A stretch of 64,000 nucleotides of DNA. It comes from Nakamurella flava. GTDB taxonomy: Bacteria; Actinomycetota; Actinomycetes; Mycobacteriales; Nakamurellaceae. The stretch lies in contig NZ_SZZH01000003.1 in the NCBI RefSeq assembly GCF_005298075.1, forward strand, positions 558,001 through 622,000. The letters run 5' to 3'. Below are positions 9,889 to 18,903 of this stretch, in pieces. The translations under genes and the position numbers were made by a program. A model generated the notes under the pieces. It saw only the letters and a list, made by a program, of their open reading frames with translations. It was not told where the DNA came from and searched no databases. Positions within the stretch are counted from its first letter, which is position 1; each line of letters begins with the position of its first letter.

Positions 9889-10752
9889 GTGACGCCGCTG
9901 CGCCTGCGGCTCGACATCTCCTACCAGGGCACCGACTTCGTGGGCTGGGCCGAACAGCCCGGTCGCCGCACGGTGGCCGGCGAGCTGCAGGGCGCGCTGG
10001 CCACGCTGCTGCGAACCCCGGGTCGGCTGGTGGTCGCGGGCCGCACGGATTCCGGCGTGCACGCCACCGGTCAGGTCGCCCACGTCGACGTGGATCCGTC
10101 CGCTCTGCTGGGTCTGACGCCCCGTGACCGGGCACCGGCCCACCTGGCGGGCGCGCTCGTCGGGTTGGTCCGCCGGCTGGCTGGTCTGCTGCCCGGCGAC
10201 GTGCGGGTGCGCGCGGCCGCCCCGGCCCCCGACGGGTTCGACGCGCGCTTCTCGGCCCTCCGCCGGCACTACCGCTACCGCATCGGCACCGCCGACTGGG
10301 GCGTCGAACCGGCCGACCGCGCATTCGTCCTGGCCGTCCGGCGCGAGCTCGATGTCGATGCCATGGCGGCGGCGGGTGTCCGACTGCTCGGCCTGCATGA
10401 CTTCGCCGCCTATTGCAAGCCCCGTGACGGGGCGACCACGATCCGCGAACTGCAGTCGCTCGTCGTCCGCCGGGCCCCGCTGGACCCGGCCGAAGTGGTG
10501 GTGGAGGTTTCCGCCGACGCGTTCTGCCACTCCATGGTGCGGTCGGTGGTCGGTGCGCTGCTCGCCGTCGGGCTCGGGCGGGACGACGTCGACGGCCCCC
10601 GACGCCGCTTGGTCTTAGCCGACCGGACGGCGTTCCCGGTGGCCGCGGCCCATGGGCTGACGCTGGTCGGGGTGGACTATCCGGCGGTGGGGGAGCTGTC
10701 GGTCCGGGCCGAACGCACCCGAGCGGTGCGGACGGTCGTCGCCGGCGAGTGA
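9889..10752 (+). CDS. truA: tRNA pseudouridine(38-40) synthase TruA
   Basis: Isomerises uridines 38-40 in the anticodon arm of tRNAs. The catalytic aspartate lies in AGRTDSGVHATGQ, followed by FDARFSALRRHYRYRI and, near the end, CHSMVRSVVGALL. GTG 9889 is chosen: it gives VTPLRLRLDISYQGTDFVGW as the family expects, and it lies after the terminator hairpin. An in-frame ATG at 9793 would put the start codon upstream of that hairpin. Predicted length is about 287 residues. truA normally sits next to rplM in actinobacteria; here an accessory island separates them. Confidence 0.95.
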   Translation: MTPLRLRLDISYQGTDFVGWAEQPGRRTVAGELQGALATLLRTPGRLVVAGRTDSGVHATGQVAHVDVDPSALLGLTPRDRAPAHLAGALVGLVRRLAGLLPGDVRVRAAAPAPDGFDARFSALRRHYRYRIGTADWGVEPADRAFVLAVRRELDVDAMAAAGVRLLGLHDFAAYCKPRDGATTIRELQSLVVRRAPLDPAEVVVEVSADAFCHSMVRSVVGALLAVGLGRDDVDGPRRRLVLADRTAFPVAAAHGLTLVGVDYPAVGELSVRAERTRAVRTVVAGE

Positions 10753-10967
10753 TCGCCCGTTCGCCGGGTGAGATGTCCGAAGTGTCTCACTCGTCCGAGT
10801 GACGTCGATCGACAGCCAGTCATAGCGAGCGGTCAGGGTCGTACCCGCTTAGCGGACGAGCCCGCGGTCGGACGACGGATAGCCTGAACGGGTCTGGAAA
10901 TTCACGCTATGACGACCGGCGAGCGGCGTCGTCCAGGGCGTCGGGCGGAGGGGAGACCGGGGTCGCC

Positions 10968-11690
10968 ATGTCGCAGGAACCCTCGGTGGTGGACGTCGAC
11001 CGGCAGAACGCGTTGATCGACGAGGCCGCGCACCAGGTGGTCGACCGGCAGATCGACATCCGGCGGGTCGACGACCGCGAGGAGATCGTCGAGGTCCTCA
11101 CCGATCTTGCGGCCACCGCGCAGCACGAGGTCTGCAGCATGTTGCCGGGCGGACCCTATGAACTGGACTACCTGCGGAGTTCCTGGTCGACGGATGTCGC
11201 GACGCTGCACCGCGGGGTGGCGCTGAACGCGCTGTACCAGGGAAACGCCGTCCGTTCGCCGGCCGTGTTGCGCTACCTCACCGATTTCGCGAAAGCCGGA
11301 GCCCAGGTGCGGGTCTCCGCCCGTCTGGCCCACCGCACGATCATCGTCGACCGGGCCGTCGCCGTCGTGGGCGTGCAGGAGGACAGTCTGAGTGTGCCGT
11401 TCCTCGTCGTGCGGGAGCCGGCGATGGTGCGGAGCTTCCATGCGCAGTTCGTCGCCCAGTGGCGGGTGTCGCCGTCGGTGGGTGTGGGTCCCGAGGACGC
11501 GTTGGCCTCCGAGACCGTGCGCGAGACGCTCGAGATCCTGCAGCTCGGGGTGACCGACGAGGTGGCGGCCCGGCGGCTGGGCATCTCGGTGCGGACCGTC
11601 CGGCGTCGGGTGGCCGCGGTCATGGAACTGCTCGGGGCCGGCAGTCGCTTCGAGGCGGGGGTACGAGCCGCTCAGGCCGGCTGGCTCTGA
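10968..11690 (+). CDS. helix-turn-helix transcriptional regulator (LuxR-like C-terminus)
   Basis: 240-residue DNA-binding regulator. The C-terminal 60 residues hold a helix-turn-helix, GVTDEVAARRLGISVRTVRRRVAAVMELLGA, of the LuxR/sigma-4-like kind. The N-terminal 160 residues are reminiscent of the phospholipase-D-like sensory fold in TrmB-type and some LuxR-type actinobacterial regulators (VCSMLPGGPYELDYL, AGAQVRVSARLAHRTIIVDRAVAVV). ATG 10968 follows GGAGGGGAGA. It is the first gene of the accessory island after truA and is convergent with the small peptide gene at 11769. Its ligand is unknown. Confidence 0.75.
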   Translation: MSQEPSVVDVDRQNALIDEAAHQVVDRQIDIRRVDDREEIVEVLTDLAATAQHEVCSMLPGGPYELDYLRSSWSTDVATLHRGVALNALYQGNAVRSPAVLRYLTDFAKAGAQVRVSARLAHRTIIVDRAVAVVGVQEDSLSVPFLVVREPAMVRSFHAQFVAQWRVSPSVGVGPEDALASETVRETLEILQLGVTDEVAARRLGISVRTVRRRVAAVMELLGAGSRFEAGVRAAQAGWL

Positions 11691-11768
11691 ATCCCGGTCC
11701 CGCGTGGAACGGAAGGCCGCGGAGCAGGTACCCGGTACGGGTTCGCCGGGTACCCGCTCCGTTCGCCG

Positions 11769-11960
11769 CTACTTGACGCAGAACCCGCAGGTGATCTTGC
11801 CCTGCGGAGCGGGCTTGGCGGCGGCCTCGCCGGCGATCGGGACGATCAGCAGACCGGCCGTGAGGGCGCCGGCGGTGAGCAACCGGGCGACGCGGCGGAA
11901 CGGGCCGGACGTGGTCGGACGGGCGGTGGTGCTGACCGGTGCTGCGTTGAGCTCAGACAT
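11769..11960 (-). CDS. 63-residue exported or membrane mini-protein with CxxC tail
   Basis: Unrecognised small gene. From ATG 11960, with a strong GGGGGAGG ribosome site 8 bases upstream, it encodes 63 residues: a Ser/Thr/Pro-rich N-terminus, a twin-arginine-like basic stretch (FRRVARLL, residues 21-28), a hydrophobic stretch (about 29-43), a possible signal-peptidase site after AAA48, and a 15-residue end KPAPQGKITCGFCVK with C58 and C61. The end could be a secreted peptide, a metal or heme ligand, or a precursor of a modified peptide. It is divergent from the 401-residue gene and convergent with the regulator. Confidence 0.65.
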   Translation of the reverse strand: MSELNAAPVSTTARPTTSGPFRRVARLLTAGALTAGLLIVPIAGEAAAKPAPQGKITCGFCVK

Positions 11961-12223
11961 GACATTTCCTCCCCCGGCGGACCCCACCGACCCGCCTTGT
12001 CTCACTATGCGTGGTTGATTGGTTGCTGTGAGCAATATGGCAGGAAGTTGTCACCGAACGAGGTTGAATCACCACTCTCTGTCAGGAACCGGCCACCCGG
12101 TCGCCGTCAGGACGCTGGTGTGCGACAACTGGGCGGGCAGCAAGTGGTGGCGACAAGCGGAACGGTGAGACCGTCCGAAGCCCGTCGGGGGTGGAGTGCG
12201 TGAGGATTGAGGGAACGGACGAC

Positions 12224-13429
12224 ATGCCCTGGGTGCAGGGCTGTCCACCGTCCTCCGGATCGTGGTTCACCGATCCGCGCTGGGAACAGTGGGCGACGGG
12301 GGTGGGAGCCGGGTCCGTCGACCACCCGAGCTCGTCCCCCTCCGGAGCCGAGCGGCAACCGGGCGGACGCACCCTGGTCTTCCAGGACGTCGGCCTCGTC
12401 GGCGTGGCCGCCCGGTCGGGATGGATCGGAGCCCTCGACACGGTGCTCGTGGGTTCGGACACCGGTGTGCCCGGTTGGCTCGAGCAGCCCTACGGCATGG
12501 CCGGGTGGTCAGCGGACCCCCCGGAACCGCCGTCGAACGGGTTGCCCGCGGCATCCGGTGCCGAGGGGGATCGCCGGCCCGGTCACGGTGGCGGTGCTCC
12601 CGGCTCCGGTCCGGGGATCGTGCTGCGGGTCGGGGACGACCACGACCTCTCCGCCTTTCTCCGCGACGCCGACCGGGCGATGGACACCGGGTGTTTCGCC
12701 GGGCACCTCCTGCGTCCCGACACCCTGGTCGGCGACCTGTCGTCGTTGGGTGCCGACTTCACGGCGGCCGGACCCGACCACCGACTCTGGGTCGCCGCCG
12801 ACGGGCGCGTCAGCACCTCGCAGTCCGGTGCCGACCTGGGACGGATCGAGGAGTCACCGGCCACGGTGACCGCACGCTGGCGGGCGCGCAACGACGGCGG
12901 GACGCGGCCCTGCGCGGTGGGCCTGGCGAAGGTGCTGGACGAGGGCGAACGGACCGAGGCGCTGGCCGACCGGCCCTGGCTGTCCCGATACCACGCGACC
13001 GTCCGCGCGATGCGCCGGCTGCGGGCGCGGGGTCTGCTGCCGATCGCCGCGTCCGGCTTCGGGCGTCGCCTGGACCGTCGAGTGGCCGCCGCACAGCCCG
13101 GCCCGGTCGTCGACGACGCCACGGCGCCGTTGCTGCTCGTGACCCGTCAGCAGGGACGCAATCGATACTGGGTCGCCGACCCCGTCACCACCCGTGGCTG
13201 CGGCATCGACGCCGCCGATGCGCTCCGGCTCGAGTACCTGCTGGCGTTCCGGTCCCGGTCGGGGGCCGGCATGGTCGACCCGTCGCCGGGCGCCCCCGGG
13301 CGATCCCCCCGAATAGCGCTGGACGATCTGATCGACCGTCTCGTCGACGACGAGATCTGCGCGCAATGGTTCTCGGCGCTCGAGCAGGGGGCCCGGCCCC
13401 TGCCGGTCGGCCGCCCGGTCTTCGGCTGA
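12224..13429 (+). CDS. unrecognised 401-residue protein of the accessory island
   Basis: No confident family. ATG 12224 has a good ribosome site (GAGGGAA, spacing 8); GTG 12191 is an alternative. Visible: a Trp/Pro-rich N-terminus, a low-complexity Gly/Pro/Ser linker (about residues 95-135), then a conserved-looking region with RPWLSRYHATVRAMRRLR, IAASGFGRRLDRRV and APLLLVTRQQ. No membrane segment or signal peptide. The pairing with a downstream iron-ADH-like gene recalls the recognition protein plus dehydrogenase pair of daptide-type peptide clusters, but this is a resemblance from memory and context, not a demonstrated homology. It shares a divergent promoter region (11961-12223) with the mini-protein gene; no promoter motif was assigned there. 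Confidence 0.65.
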   Translation: MPWVQGCPPSSGSWFTDPRWEQWATGVGAGSVDHPSSSPSGAERQPGGRTLVFQDVGLVGVAARSGWIGALDTVLVGSDTGVPGWLEQPYGMAGWSADPPEPPSNGLPAASGAEGDRRPGHGGGAPGSGPGIVLRVGDDHDLSAFLRDADRAMDTGCFAGHLLRPDTLVGDLSSLGADFTAAGPDHRLWVAADGRVSTSQSGADLGRIEESPATVTARWRARNDGGTRPCAVGLAKVLDEGERTEALADRPWLSRYHATVRAMRRLRARGLLPIAASGFGRRLDRRVAAAQPGPVVDDATAPLLLVTRQQGRNRYWVADPVTTRGCGIDAADALRLEYLLAFRSRSGAGMVDPSPGAPGRSPRIALDDLIDRLVDDEICAQWFSALEQGARPLPVGRPVFG

Positions 13430-13593
13430 CAGCGCGGCTGGCAGCATCCGGACATCCACCGGACGCGACCCGCCCCGCTCCCTAGTGTCGTTGTCGGAGG
13501 CCGGATCTCGCCGTGAGGGGTGGCGAGACGAAAGTCGCCGCGACACGGGACGGGGCCGTCCGGGCCCGCCGAAGATCTGACGGGAGTCGCGTC

Positions 13594-14904
13594 ATGAGGT
13601 GGCCGTTCTTCCCGCGGGTCCCCGCGGACGCGGATGGTCCCGCCGCGACCGGTGATCCCGCCGAACCGACCGGTCGGTCCGGGGTGGTCCTTCCCGGTCA
13701 CCACGACCCCACGACGCCCCGCCGGGGCGTCATCCCGGCGCAGGCGCAGGCGCAGGCGCGGGCCGAGCCGGACGCCGTGAGCGTGCTGGCGGATGCGGTG
13801 GTCGATGCCCTTGCGAGCGATGCGGACGGGCGAAGCGGCCCGTGGGGTGCATCGGCGGTGGCCGTCCTGGTGGATGCCCCGTCGGTTCCGTCGGGACCGC
13901 CCCTCTGCGGGGTGAGGGCGCCCCACGTCCGCCCCGCGGCCCGGCCGGTGGTGGACGAGCTGCTCGCCCGTCTCGCCCAGCGGGTACCGGTCCGTCGGGT
14001 GGTGACGGTCTGCACCGGGGCCGGCCCGGTGGACGTGCACGAACTCGACGCGCTCGCCGATCGCCTGGGCGGGGTCGACGCGGTGGTCGCCATCGGTGGG
14101 GGCCGGACGATCGACGCCGCGCGGGTACTGGCCGCGGGTGGTCGTTCGCTGGTCCCGCTCTACGCCGGTCGGGGGGGAAGCCAGTGCCTGCTACCGCTGG
14201 CCGCCGCGGTACCGCTGGTGACCGTCCCGGTCGATCTCCTGGCCGCATCCGCCGCCGGGGCGGTCGTCGTGGGGACGGACGTCGGCCGGCTGGTCCTGAC
14301 CGGCGACGCCCTGCAACCCCGTCGGCGTCTCCCGCTGCCCGGAGCGTCCAGCGACCCGGAGCCGCGTGCAGCGGCGATGCTGACGACGGTGGGTCGTCTG
14401 CTGGGTCCCTGGCACGGCGCCGGACTGCCGGCCCCGCAGCGGGCCGTGTTCGACGTCCGGGCGCTGTTCGGTGCCGGTCTGGACCTGTCGCTGGACCCGG
14501 CGGCGGCCGCCGCGTCGGGAGCGCTCGCCCGGCTGGAGGAGTTGGGTCAGCGGGCCGCCCGGGTCGGTGGGCCGCCCGGCCGGCCGTGTTCCTGGTGGCT
14601 GTGGCCCGTCGCGCACGAGTGGGCGACGATCACCGACCAGTCGTTCGCCGTCGCGCTGGGGGCCTTGCTGCCACCCTGGTTGGCCGAGGGGTCGGCCGCC
14701 GGTCTACCGGGCGAGCAGCTCGACCTGTGGCATGAAGCTGCCATTCCGCTCCGGCCGTCCCGGCCGCCGGTCACACTGACCGCGGCCGACCTGCGGGTCG
14801 TCCTCCAGCGGGTCGACCGCTGGTGGCGCCCCATCGGCCCCGGCATCCCGGATGCCGATCAGGTGCACAGGATCTTCGGTCTCCGTCGGTGTTCGACCGC
14901 GTGA
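13594..14904 (+). CDS. degenerate iron-alcohol-dehydrogenase/DHQ-synthase-like protein
   Basis: 436 residues from ATG 13594 (ribosome site GGGAG, spacing 7); GTG 13513 is a possible longer start. The core resembles the NAD-binding half of group III iron-dependent alcohol dehydrogenases: VVTVCTGAGPV, then VVAIGGGRTIDAARVLAAGG (about residues 165-184), then PLVTVPVDLLAASAAGAVV where these enzymes have the PTTAGTGSE loop. In the C-terminal half only AHEWATITDQSFAVALGALLP recalls the metal-binding helix, and the usual Asp/His pair is not evident. So either the metal site has changed or the protein is a relative with another role. It probably shares a transcript with the preceding gene. Confidence 0.6.
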   Translation: MRWPFFPRVPADADGPAATGDPAEPTGRSGVVLPGHHDPTTPRRGVIPAQAQAQARAEPDAVSVLADAVVDALASDADGRSGPWGASAVAVLVDAPSVPSGPPLCGVRAPHVRPAARPVVDELLARLAQRVPVRRVVTVCTGAGPVDVHELDALADRLGGVDAVVAIGGGRTIDAARVLAAGGRSLVPLYAGRGGSQCLLPLAAAVPLVTVPVDLLAASAAGAVVVGTDVGRLVLTGDALQPRRRLPLPGASSDPEPRAAAMLTTVGRLLGPWHGAGLPAPQRAVFDVRALFGAGLDLSLDPAAAAASGALARLEELGQRAARVGGPPGRPCSWWLWPVAHEWATITDQSFAVALGALLPPWLAEGSAAGLPGEQLDLWHEAAIPLRPSRPPVTLTAADLRVVLQRVDRWWRPIGPGIPDADQVHRIFGLRRCSTA

Positions 14905-15006
14905 GTTCCGCAACGGGCCCGCAGGTAGGGGGGATGGGCCCGCTGGGGACGCGCCGGGCGCACCACCTGCCGTGGGGGCGGCAGGACGGGGACCGGGCAT
15001 CGAAGT

Positions 15007-15040
15007 GACGTCGGCCCGACGCGGGGTGCGGGCCGACGTC
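15007..15040 (+). terminator. terminator-like hairpin after the accessory island
   Basis: GACGTCGGCCCG (15007-15018) pairs perfectly with CGGGCCGACGTC (15029-15040) across a 10-base loop. There is no T tract, as is common in high-GC actinobacteria. It separates the island from rplM. The gap 14905-15351 otherwise holds only this hairpin, the promoter at 15111 and the rplM leader. Confidence 0.6.
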
Positions 15041-15110
15041 CTCGGTGTGCTGTCATGAAGAACGCCCCGCGTCCCGGCCGGAGCCGGCTGGCCGGCGGTG
15101 ACGACGAGTT

Positions 15111-15140
15111 TTGACCCCGCCCCGGTTCGGCGGGTAGTCT
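15111..15140 (+). promoter_or_regulatory. sigma-A type promoter for rplM-rpsI
   Basis: TTGACC (15111-15116), an 18-base spacer and TAGTCT (15135-15140). The predicted start near 15147 leaves a leader of about 200 bases before rplM, which could hold a control structure; none was recognised. Confidence 0.65.
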
Positions 15141-15351
15141 GATCAGTCGGTGTGCCGCGCGGCTGCTTGCCGCCTCGATGTGTTACCTGCTCCGGTAGGT
15201 GGCGTCCATCGAAATGGCGGCGTCGAGCAGCTCGATGGTCGAGTCGGTCCGTTCTGCGGATCGTCACGGTTCGGTCTGTGCGGCGCGGGATCGAGACATT
15301 CGGTCAGCACCCGGCAGGAACCAGGACAAAACAGCGAAAAGGCAGACTTCT

Positions 15352-15795
15352 GTGCGCACGTACAGCCCCAAGCCCGGCGACATCACCCATGCCTGGCACG
15401 TCATCGACGCCACCGACGTCGTGCTCGGCCGGCTCGCCAGCCAGTCGGCACGACTGCTCCGCGGCAAGCACAAGGCGATCTACGCGCCGCACATGGACAC
15501 CGGCGACTACGTCGTGATCGTCAACGCGGCCAAGGTCGCGGTGTCCGGGAGCAAGCGCGAGAACGAGTTCCACTACCGGCACTCGGGCCACCCGGGCGGT
15601 CTGCGCAAGGAATCCGTCGGCCAGATGCTCGAGTCCAAGCCGGAGAAGCTGGTCGAGAAGGCCATCCTGGGCATGCTGCCGCACAACTCGCTGGGCAAGT
15701 CCATGGGCCGCAAGCTGAAGGTCTACGCCGGTGCCGAGCACCCGCACACGGCCCAGCAGCCGCAGCCGTTCACGATCGATCAGATCGCCCAGTAA
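15352..15795 (+). CDS. rplM: ribosomal protein uL13
   Basis: 147-residue large-subunit protein. Family segments include [43 protein letters not shown] and [22 protein letters not shown] 15352 is chosen because it starts [10 protein letters not shown], the typical actinobacterial beginning; upstream codons belong to the leader. It is followed by rpsI after 28 bases. Confidence 0.98.
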
Positions 15796-17928: not shown

Positions 17929-18850
17929 TCAGCGCAGGTCGACCCGGATGATGCGGTTGCCGCCCGAGTTGGTGGTGGTCAGCCACAGGTCGCCGCCGGT
18001 CGCCGGTTCGACCGTCCGCAGGCGGCCGAACGTTCCCACGAAGTACTGCTGAGGGTTTACCAGGCTGCTGCCGGAGATCTCGGCCCGGTAGAGCCGCTGA
18101 CCGCGGGCGCAGGCCACGTAGACGGCCGAGCCGACCACGGCCAGGCCGCTGCACGACCCCTCGGAGGTCGGGTACGTCAGCTTCGGGGCGACGAGCCCGG
18201 CGTTGCCGCAGCCGCCGCCGGTGGCGACAGAGAGCATGCCGTCCGGGCCGAAGCGCAGCCGCCCGCCGGTTCGACCGTCCGCGGGCGGCCGAACGTGCCC
18301 ACGAAGTACTGCTGAGGGTTCACCAGGCTGCTGCCGGAGATCTCGGCCCGGTAGAGCCGCTGACCGCGGGCGCAGGCCACGTAGACGGCCGAGCCGACCA
18401 CGGCCGGGCCGCTGCACGACCCCTCGGAGGTCGGGTACGTCAGCTTCGGGGCGACGAGCCCGGCGTTGCCGCAGCCGCCGCCGGTGGCGACAGAGAGCAT
18501 GCCGTCCGGGCCGAAGCGCAGCCGCCCGCCGTTGTGGAACTGGTTCCGTGGGATTGCCGGACAGCAGCACCTGGGTCGATAACGCGTCGAGGCTTCCGTT
18601 CGCGTACCGCATCCGGACGAGCCGGTTGTCGGTGGCGGTCGACTGCATGACGTACAGCCAGGGGGCGGTCGAGAAGTGCGCCGCCCTCGCCGTCGGTGGT
18701 GGCCGCGTTCGGGATGCTGCCGAGGACGGTCTGGGCGCCCGTGGAAGCGTCCGTCCGGACGATCTGCCGCGCGTCCCGACGGGAATACAGGATCGAGCCG
18801 TCCGGCAGGGCGACCAGACCCCAGGGAATGTCATCGTCCGTCGCGACCAC
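17929..18850 (-). pseudogene. PQQ-type glucose/sorbosone dehydrogenase-like gene, broken
   Basis: Remains of a secreted beta-propeller sugar dehydrogenase. Frames on the minus strand must be pieced together: the start ATG 18850 gives DDDIPWGLVALPDGSILYSR; a second frame carries LYVMQSTATDNRLVRMRYANG; a third resumes FHNGGRLRFGPDGML; a fourth segment ends GGDLWLTTTNSGG and NRIIRVDLR. At least two small frameshifts (near 18670 and 18550) and a 263-bp tandem duplication (18001-18526) break it. No signal peptide is left at the front. It probably has no function, unless the indels are sequencing errors. Confidence 0.8.
18001..18526. repeat. 263-bp direct tandem duplication inside the sugar dehydrogenase pseudogene
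   Basis: Unit A (18001-18263) and unit B (18264-18526) are the same sequence with four differences by eye (A/G, T/G, T/C, A/G). Both start CGCCGGTTCGACCGTCCGC. The unit length is not a multiple of three, so the copy shifts the frame. It encodes the GGRLRFGPDGML to TFGRLRTVEPA part of the protein twice. This is a recent local duplication, not a transposon. Confidence 0.9.
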
Positions 18851-18903
18851 GGTCCTCCCGCAGGAGCGACCTCAGTCACGGACAGCCGTGCGGGACCGCC
18901 GGA

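Follow-up and report, generated by a model that had tools for sequence, protein, structure and literature searches.

Quorum sensing by peptides is well established in Firmicutes, and a tetratricopeptide repeat (TPR) domain is a defining feature of the RRNPP receptors. RRNPP peptide quorum sensing is described as a system in which the propeptide gene adjoins the gene of its cytoplasmic receptor (PMC10075063), and quorum sensing in Actinobacteria has been called under-explored (PMC4748050). Daptides, in turn, are described as peptides whose C-terminal Thr is converted to an amine by DapB together with DapC, an aminotransferase, and a methyltransferase (PMC10036551); DapB (MpaB) is reported as a protein combining a domain of unknown function with a RiPP (ribosomally synthesized and posttranslationally modified peptide) recognition element (DUF-RRE), and DapC (MpaC) as a PF00465-type oxidative decarboxylase (PMC10036551, PMC12338566). 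Here, we analyze an island of four genes between truA and rplM of Nakamurella flava, within a window of 64,000 nucleotides (the whole stretch of DNA analyzed, from contig NZ_SZZH01000003.1), which resembles both systems in part. The island holds a regulator, a gene for a 63-amino-acid (aa) peptide, and genes for a 401-aa and a 436-aa protein (Table 1), confirming the gene content given by a first-pass annotation that had proposed a daptide-related peptide system.

We tentatively read the island as a secreted peptide–regulator signalling pair standing beside a repurposed DapB and a probable pseudo-DapC, a reading whose chances we place a little below even. The peptide would be made with a signal peptide, exported by the Sec route, and trimmed to approximately 15 residues with a CGFC motif at the end. 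It would then serve as a cell-to-cell or self-sensing signal read by the TrmB/LuxR-type regulator, whose most likely targets are the divergent genes for the peptide and the DapB-like protein, controlled via the intergenic region between them. The DapB-like and DapC-like proteins would descend from a daptide oxidative decarboxylase and now stand outside the daptide pathway, with DapB most likely still binding a peptide through its RRE, possibly the peptide of the island.

Regulator and peptide as a proposed pair within the genus

The 63-aa peptide has seven database homologues that are 70 to 90% identical, and CGFCV is invariant in 8/8 sequences; on this conservation, the open reading frame (ORF) is no chance ORF. 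The homologues conserve the pattern RRxxRLxTxGALxAGLLxVPIAG in the signal-like region, and the AxA rule, applied by eye, predicts export and cleavage after AAA, which would release KPAPQGKITCGFCVK. The C-terminal residue is Lys or Arg in the window-type peptides and Phe in those of two other genomes of the genus, G003 and G011.

All Pfam matches of the window regulator lie below cut-off. Its longer homologues resemble the TrmB family (PF01978, PF11495) in matching the TrmB helix-turn-helix (HTH) above cut-off (L075, L052); they differ in the added C-terminal LuxR HTH, and the window regulator itself lacks the N-terminal TrmB HTH. GerE is matched above cut-off in the homologues L009 and L052. 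As in RRNPP systems, the regulator adjoins a gene for a short and putatively exported propeptide (signal by a simple rule). The differences are that the regulator is of TrmB/LuxR type, that the pairs occur in Actinomycetota, and that the peptides have Trp or CxxC tails; neither the window regulator nor the homologues scanned had a TPR family among their Pfam matches.

The gene order of the window recurs in G011 and G003, where the regulator is followed by a convergent CGxC peptide (ending ..LRF or ..LHF) and dapB, the latter two being divergent neighbours. A regulator with a signal-like, CxxC-tailed peptide is also present in G005 (two loci), G014, and G016, in which no DapB was found, and further pairs were seen in G023 and G036 (one family), G033 and G054 (another), and G043. 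We assign the peptide to the regulator and not to DapB because regulator and peptide occur in genomes of the genus in which no DapB was found. The earlier idea of the peptide as the precursor of DapB and DapC is thereby undermined by G005, G014, and G016, and the pair occurs in other families as well.

In three of the four loci of G005, G014, and G016, a gene that we call X lies between the CxxC peptide and the regulator. It encodes proteins of 360, 363, and 341 aa with no Pfam match above cut-off; the second and third share 46 and 42% identity with the first. A perfect palindrome, TGTCC-N6-GGACA, was observed between the peptide and the dapB-like gene of two close relatives, at L009:9872 and L010:1283, and is absent from the window.

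Recurrence of putative regulator–peptide pairs in wider taxa

Members of the regulator family are frequent, occurring in 284 of 397 order-level genomes (E<=0.001) and, with alignment, in 190 of 394 class-level genomes (E<=1e-15). Approximately 14 kb was read around 60 order-level and 40 class-level homologues chosen from far more matches, some contigs being shorter. Under a first rule (signal-like start, CxxC within the last 20 residues), nine matches were found within 1.5 kb of the regulator in 9/60 loci, two at 1.5 to 3 kb, and four beyond 3 kb; none of those beyond 1.5 kb was convincing by eye, and the far zone holds 1.5 times the non-genic DNA. Class-level loci showed Trp tails, often repeated (TDGNTWPG repeats, GTTWD repeats, DSMGWQ, NDMIWG, and DSLGWG). 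A Trp rule fixed beforehand (a signal-like ORF no longer than 150 aa with W among its final eight residues) and applied to 40 unseen loci was satisfied by 35 of 103 signal ORFs near the regulator versus 18 of 110 far from it (p=0.002), many in both zones being spurious.

Applied to the 60 order-level loci, a strict rule, with a stricter signal criterion and a W or CxxC tail, gave 24/44 near versus 2/34 far (24 loci versus 2; p=3e-6), and 15/35 versus 2/34 after removal of the nine CxxC loci that had prompted the idea (p=3e-4). In the 40 class-level loci, the counts were 18/40 near versus 7/29 far (17 loci versus 6; p=0.06). One family of regulator loci, f2, has a W tail in 11 of 12 loci, mostly ..DWWW, one of these loci (L143) having been known before the test. 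Peptide tails also follow regulator similarity, with a Mantel r of 0.59 over 50 loci and 0.34 over 26 mostly class-level loci; none of 5,000 permutations reached either value, and the correlation stays beyond all permutations after pairs more than 70% identical are dropped. Tandem Trp motifs beside regulators (L084, L171, L177, and L236; Table 1) were counted in favour of a signal because secreted pheromone precursors show the same feature.

No report of TrmB/LuxR-type regulators paired with exported peptides was found among the papers listed in searches of the open-licence literature. We put forward, as a possibility that we rate clearly below even, an unrecognised but widespread peptide-signalling system of Actinomycetota in which TrmB/LuxR regulators would respond to Sec-exported peptides with the C-terminal motif as ligand (DWWW, DSxIWG, GWQ, TWPG repeats, CxxCW). 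Such pairs would lie beside RiPP clusters such as those of daptides and, in this genus, beside a recruited daptide RRE as a peptide-binding partner.

Daptide-derived proteins without a daptide pathway

The 401-aa protein is homologous to DapB/MpaB. It passes the NCBIfam daptide_RRE model (NF041823; Table 1), its C-terminal domain is modelled as an RRE fold, and in a tree of 38 DapB rows the window clade and the proteins of G003 and G011 form one clade (support 98/93) that clusters with DapB. The first-pass annotation had given the protein no clear family and suspected kinship with the daptide recognition protein; the former is corrected by membership in NF041823, and on the latter profile, tree, and modelled RRE agree. 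Of 40 columns with 90% or higher conservation across 26 canonical rows, 29 are retained by seven or more of the eight window-type DapB rows, and DapB of G003 and of G011 both retain 33. Three of the 17 genus genomes carry the gene.

The 436-aa protein appears, from weak profile matches, to be a distant and degenerate DapC/MpaC relative of the iron-containing alcohol dehydrogenase (Fe-ADH) type. Its match to the DapC model NF041822 is well below cut-off (Table 1), and it scores 29.6 bits against Fe-ADH PF00465 (cut-off 31.3). Among four relatives scanned, two gave weak NF041822 matches of 42.7 and 27.0 bits, and the other two, P0012 and P0013, matched no NCBIfam family at E <= 0.001. The earlier description of a degenerate iron-ADH/DHQ-synthase-like protein, and the suspected link to MpaC, stand as distant kinship, below the cut-offs of NF041822 and PF00465. 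Across 28 canonical DapC, 46 columns reach a conservation of 90% or more; 21/46 are retained in at least six of seven window-type DapC proteins. The GGG cofactor motif is altered in 4/7 and the PTTxGT region is altered, which suggests that catalysis has been lost and that the protein is a probable pseudoenzyme. Loss of metal ligands alone is uninformative here, because canonical DapC is reported to lack them and to work without metal (PMC12338566). The structure model of the DapC-like protein, with a predicted local distance difference test (pLDDT) score of 51, is too poor for use. Between them, the DapB-like and DapC-like proteins keep the modelled RRE fold and, judging from these motifs, have probably lost catalysis.

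The DapC-like gene was found in one of 17 genus genomes and gave no match in the DapB-bearing G003 and G011; the G003 contig stops just past DapB, so the negative there comes from the genome search. The four-gene set anticipated in relatives is seen there as regulator, peptide, and DapB, with no DapC found in either genome. The daptide precursor model NF041808 and the daptide aminotransferase model NF041821 had no match above cut-off in any of three genomes (G000, G003, and G011), bearing out the earlier caveat that an aminotransferase is missing; sub-threshold matches occur in control genomes as well (precursor, 7/14; aminotransferase, 14/14). In named genomes, 26 of 28 DapB loci have DapC, an aminotransferase, and a methyltransferase by BLAST, the two exceptions being G003 and G011 of the window's genus. 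The island resembles daptide biosynthesis in its DapB and its distant DapC; it differs in that no daptide precursor or aminotransferase lies above cut-off in the three genomes, that DapC is degenerate or missing, that the peptide ends CVK and not in Thr, and that the peptide near the DapB-like gene starts like a signal peptide. We reject a daptide pathway at the island, since neither a precursor nor an aminotransferase passes its cut-off in the three genomes, the peptide does not end in Thr, and G003 and G011, which keep DapB, yielded no DapC. Of the proposed daptide-related peptide system, the kinship of DapB and, distantly, of DapC is retained, and the short peptide as precursor is not.

By gene calls, the regulator lies near nine of the 28 DapB loci; the calls overlooked the copies that L076 and L080 do have. 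On reading, the regulator is accompanied in eight of these nine daptide loci by a small protein carrying a W close to its end. Five are clear, showing HDWG (five times), NNDWK, NNDWE (three times), HEWG, and HEWD, and three of one Streptomyces group have NGWQ near the end. A stripped-down daptide cluster with regulator and peptide would be a natural ancestor of the island. The window regulator is 36 to 48% identical to those of its own genus by alignment and 31 to 34% to the daptide ones among the BLAST matches listed; because it is closer to the former, the regulator–peptide pair and DapB may instead have met independently. At L056 and L061, regulator homologues adjoin small ORFs that by eye resemble lasso or lanthipeptide precursors, suggesting that regulator homologues may be cluster-situated regulators of several kinds of RiPP.

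Alternative explanations

Within the lineage of the window, the genes for peptide, DapB, and DapC seem not to have separated, as would suit a common task. A longest contig of 5906 is common to P0003, P0012, and P0017 and one of 5415 to P0007, P0014, and P0019 (all three proteins in both cases), one of 6826 to P0013 and P0018 (peptide and DapC), and one of 1814 to P0004 and P0020 (peptide and DapB). These matches, a fingerprint of co-location and not a reading of contigs, cover 4/7 peptide, 3/8 DapB, and 3/6 DapC homologues, the remainder having no match. Identity goes down to 53% among the homologues of DapB and DapC, and the peptide holds 70 to 90%, a difference that we count in favour of the regulator–peptide pair. 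The contig matches are the strongest support for an alternative in which the CxxC peptide is a substrate, recruited by DapB through its RRE and modified by the DapC-like protein at the C terminus or Cys tail, as a Sec-exported variant of a daptide. The retained RRE fold and the divergent arrangement of peptide and dapB in G003/G011 agree with this. Set against it are the regulator–peptide pairs of genus genomes in which no DapB was found, peptide ends that are never Thr, the lack of a daptide leader above cut-off in the genomes, two genomes that have DapB and yielded no DapC, and the altered motifs of window-type DapC; we regard a substrate role as unlikely. The island might also be what remains of a decaying daptide cluster that no longer has a function, as the lack of an aminotransferase or precursor above cut-off and the degenerate, patchy DapC could indicate. 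A relic is harder to reconcile with four intact open frames, the canonical columns kept by DapB (more in G003/G011), DapB and DapC close homologues of similar length (53 to 96% identical), and the invariant peptide end, and we find it very improbable. We likewise think it unlikely that the peptides are secreted antimicrobials or redox or structural peptides under the regulator, with DapB an unrelated neighbour or immunity-like factor. Short exported peptides near a regulator also suit bacteriocin-like products, and some regulator loci adjoin RiPP-like precursors by reading (L056, L061); repeated short W motifs and their covariation with the regulator, however, suit a ligand better, and none of the four island genes looked like a transporter gene.

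Several points weigh against the peptide–regulator signalling pair that we favour, besides the co-location just described. The regulator is cytoplasmic and the peptide would be exported, so that their route of contact needs explaining. In G004 and G013, a regulator homologue is present and no peptide was found beside it, and under the strict rule 36/60 order-level and 23/40 class-level loci have no such peptide. That rule was devised after the Trp-rule result, the class-level set is not significant under it, and the far matches in L209, L226, and L227 look genuine. Of the 24 near loci at the order level, nine had suggested the idea in the first place, f2 supplies 11 of the remaining 15, and L109, L130, and L135 look spurious; because the prompting loci and f2 dominate, the matches are non-independent and the p values optimistic. 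Signal peptides were called by a simple home-made rule. The Mantel permutations ignore species kinship, and some of the peptides look spurious (L130, L135, L138, and L230). In the DapB tree, the clade uniting the window and G003/G011 joins two long branches.

Layout of the island and its surroundings

Table 1. Features of the truA–rplM island (window coordinates) and of related loci (locus coordinates)
Feature	Position	Strand	Basis
Regulator, 240 aa	10968..11690	+	Weak TrmB-sensor/PLD-like match and C-terminal LuxR(GerE)-type HTH
Putative exported peptide gene, 63 aa, ends KITCGFCVK	11769..11960	-	Convergent with regulator; homologues, conserved end
Putative signal peptide, residues 1-48, up to AAA/K	11817..11960	-	AxA rule by eye, conserved N-terminal pattern
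Putative mature 15-residue peptide KPAPQGKITCGFCVK	11772..11816	-	Predicted from AxA site; CGFCV invariant 8/8
Divergent intergenic region, peptide gene/dapB-like gene; candidate regulator target	11961..12223	.	Suggested by gene order
DapB/MpaB-like protein, 401 aa	12224..13429	+	NF041823, 173.9 bits (cut-off 150); tree
RRE domain, C-terminal, residues 297-383 of DapB-like protein	13112..13372	+	Modelled fold
DapC/MpaC-like protein, 436 aa, probable pseudoenzyme of degenerate Fe-ADH type	13594..14904	+	NF041822, 44.1 bits (cut-off 300); 21/46 columns
Gene X	L105:5880-6962; L106:7634-8725; L107:7736-8761		C-terminal part phosphotransferase-like by eye
Signal-like small proteins with tandem Trp motifs beside regulators	L084:6089-6478; L171:3-275; L177:990-1358; L236		NHDWG x5, TDGNTWPG, GTTWD, DTGWG

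The 401-aa and 436-aa proteins have one match each in the 4.84-Mb genome. Their starts at 12224 and 13594 equal those of the homologues P0001 and P0009, with P0010 listed from a start farther upstream. Searches of 10700-15500 for a sigma-70-type promoter, a terminator, and an Rfam match found none, and no methyltransferase, peptidase, or transporter is among the four island genes, a genome-wide search for these not having been made. The expectation that truA normally leads straight to rplM did not hold, as a gene-free gap was found in only 2 of 12 other genus genomes (G004 and G010) with both flanks visible to a home-made gene caller; four more did not show both flanks together. In G012 (L044), the truA–rplM gap is approximately 10 kb and encodes a secretion-ATPase-like protein of 1230 aa together with two small WXG100-like proteins, as would fit an ESX-type locus. 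Elsewhere in the window, at 17929-18879 on the minus strand, ORFs contain near-duplicate stretches with VATGGGCGNAGLVAPKLTYPTSEG repeated, probably an internal duplication.

Significance

The locus shows that an RRE is able to persist without its enzyme. The daptide_RRE equivalog model (NF041823) passes proteins of genomes that have no daptide precursor or aminotransferase above cut-off, and automatic annotation with this model may therefore overcall daptides. The island itself is a variant of daptide-derived proteins, and the pairing of regulator and peptide, if it is signalling, would be the larger finding. A regulator–peptide code readable from genomes, in part located beside natural-product clusters, would, if true, allow direct and cheap tests with short synthetic peptides and perhaps the waking of silent clusters.

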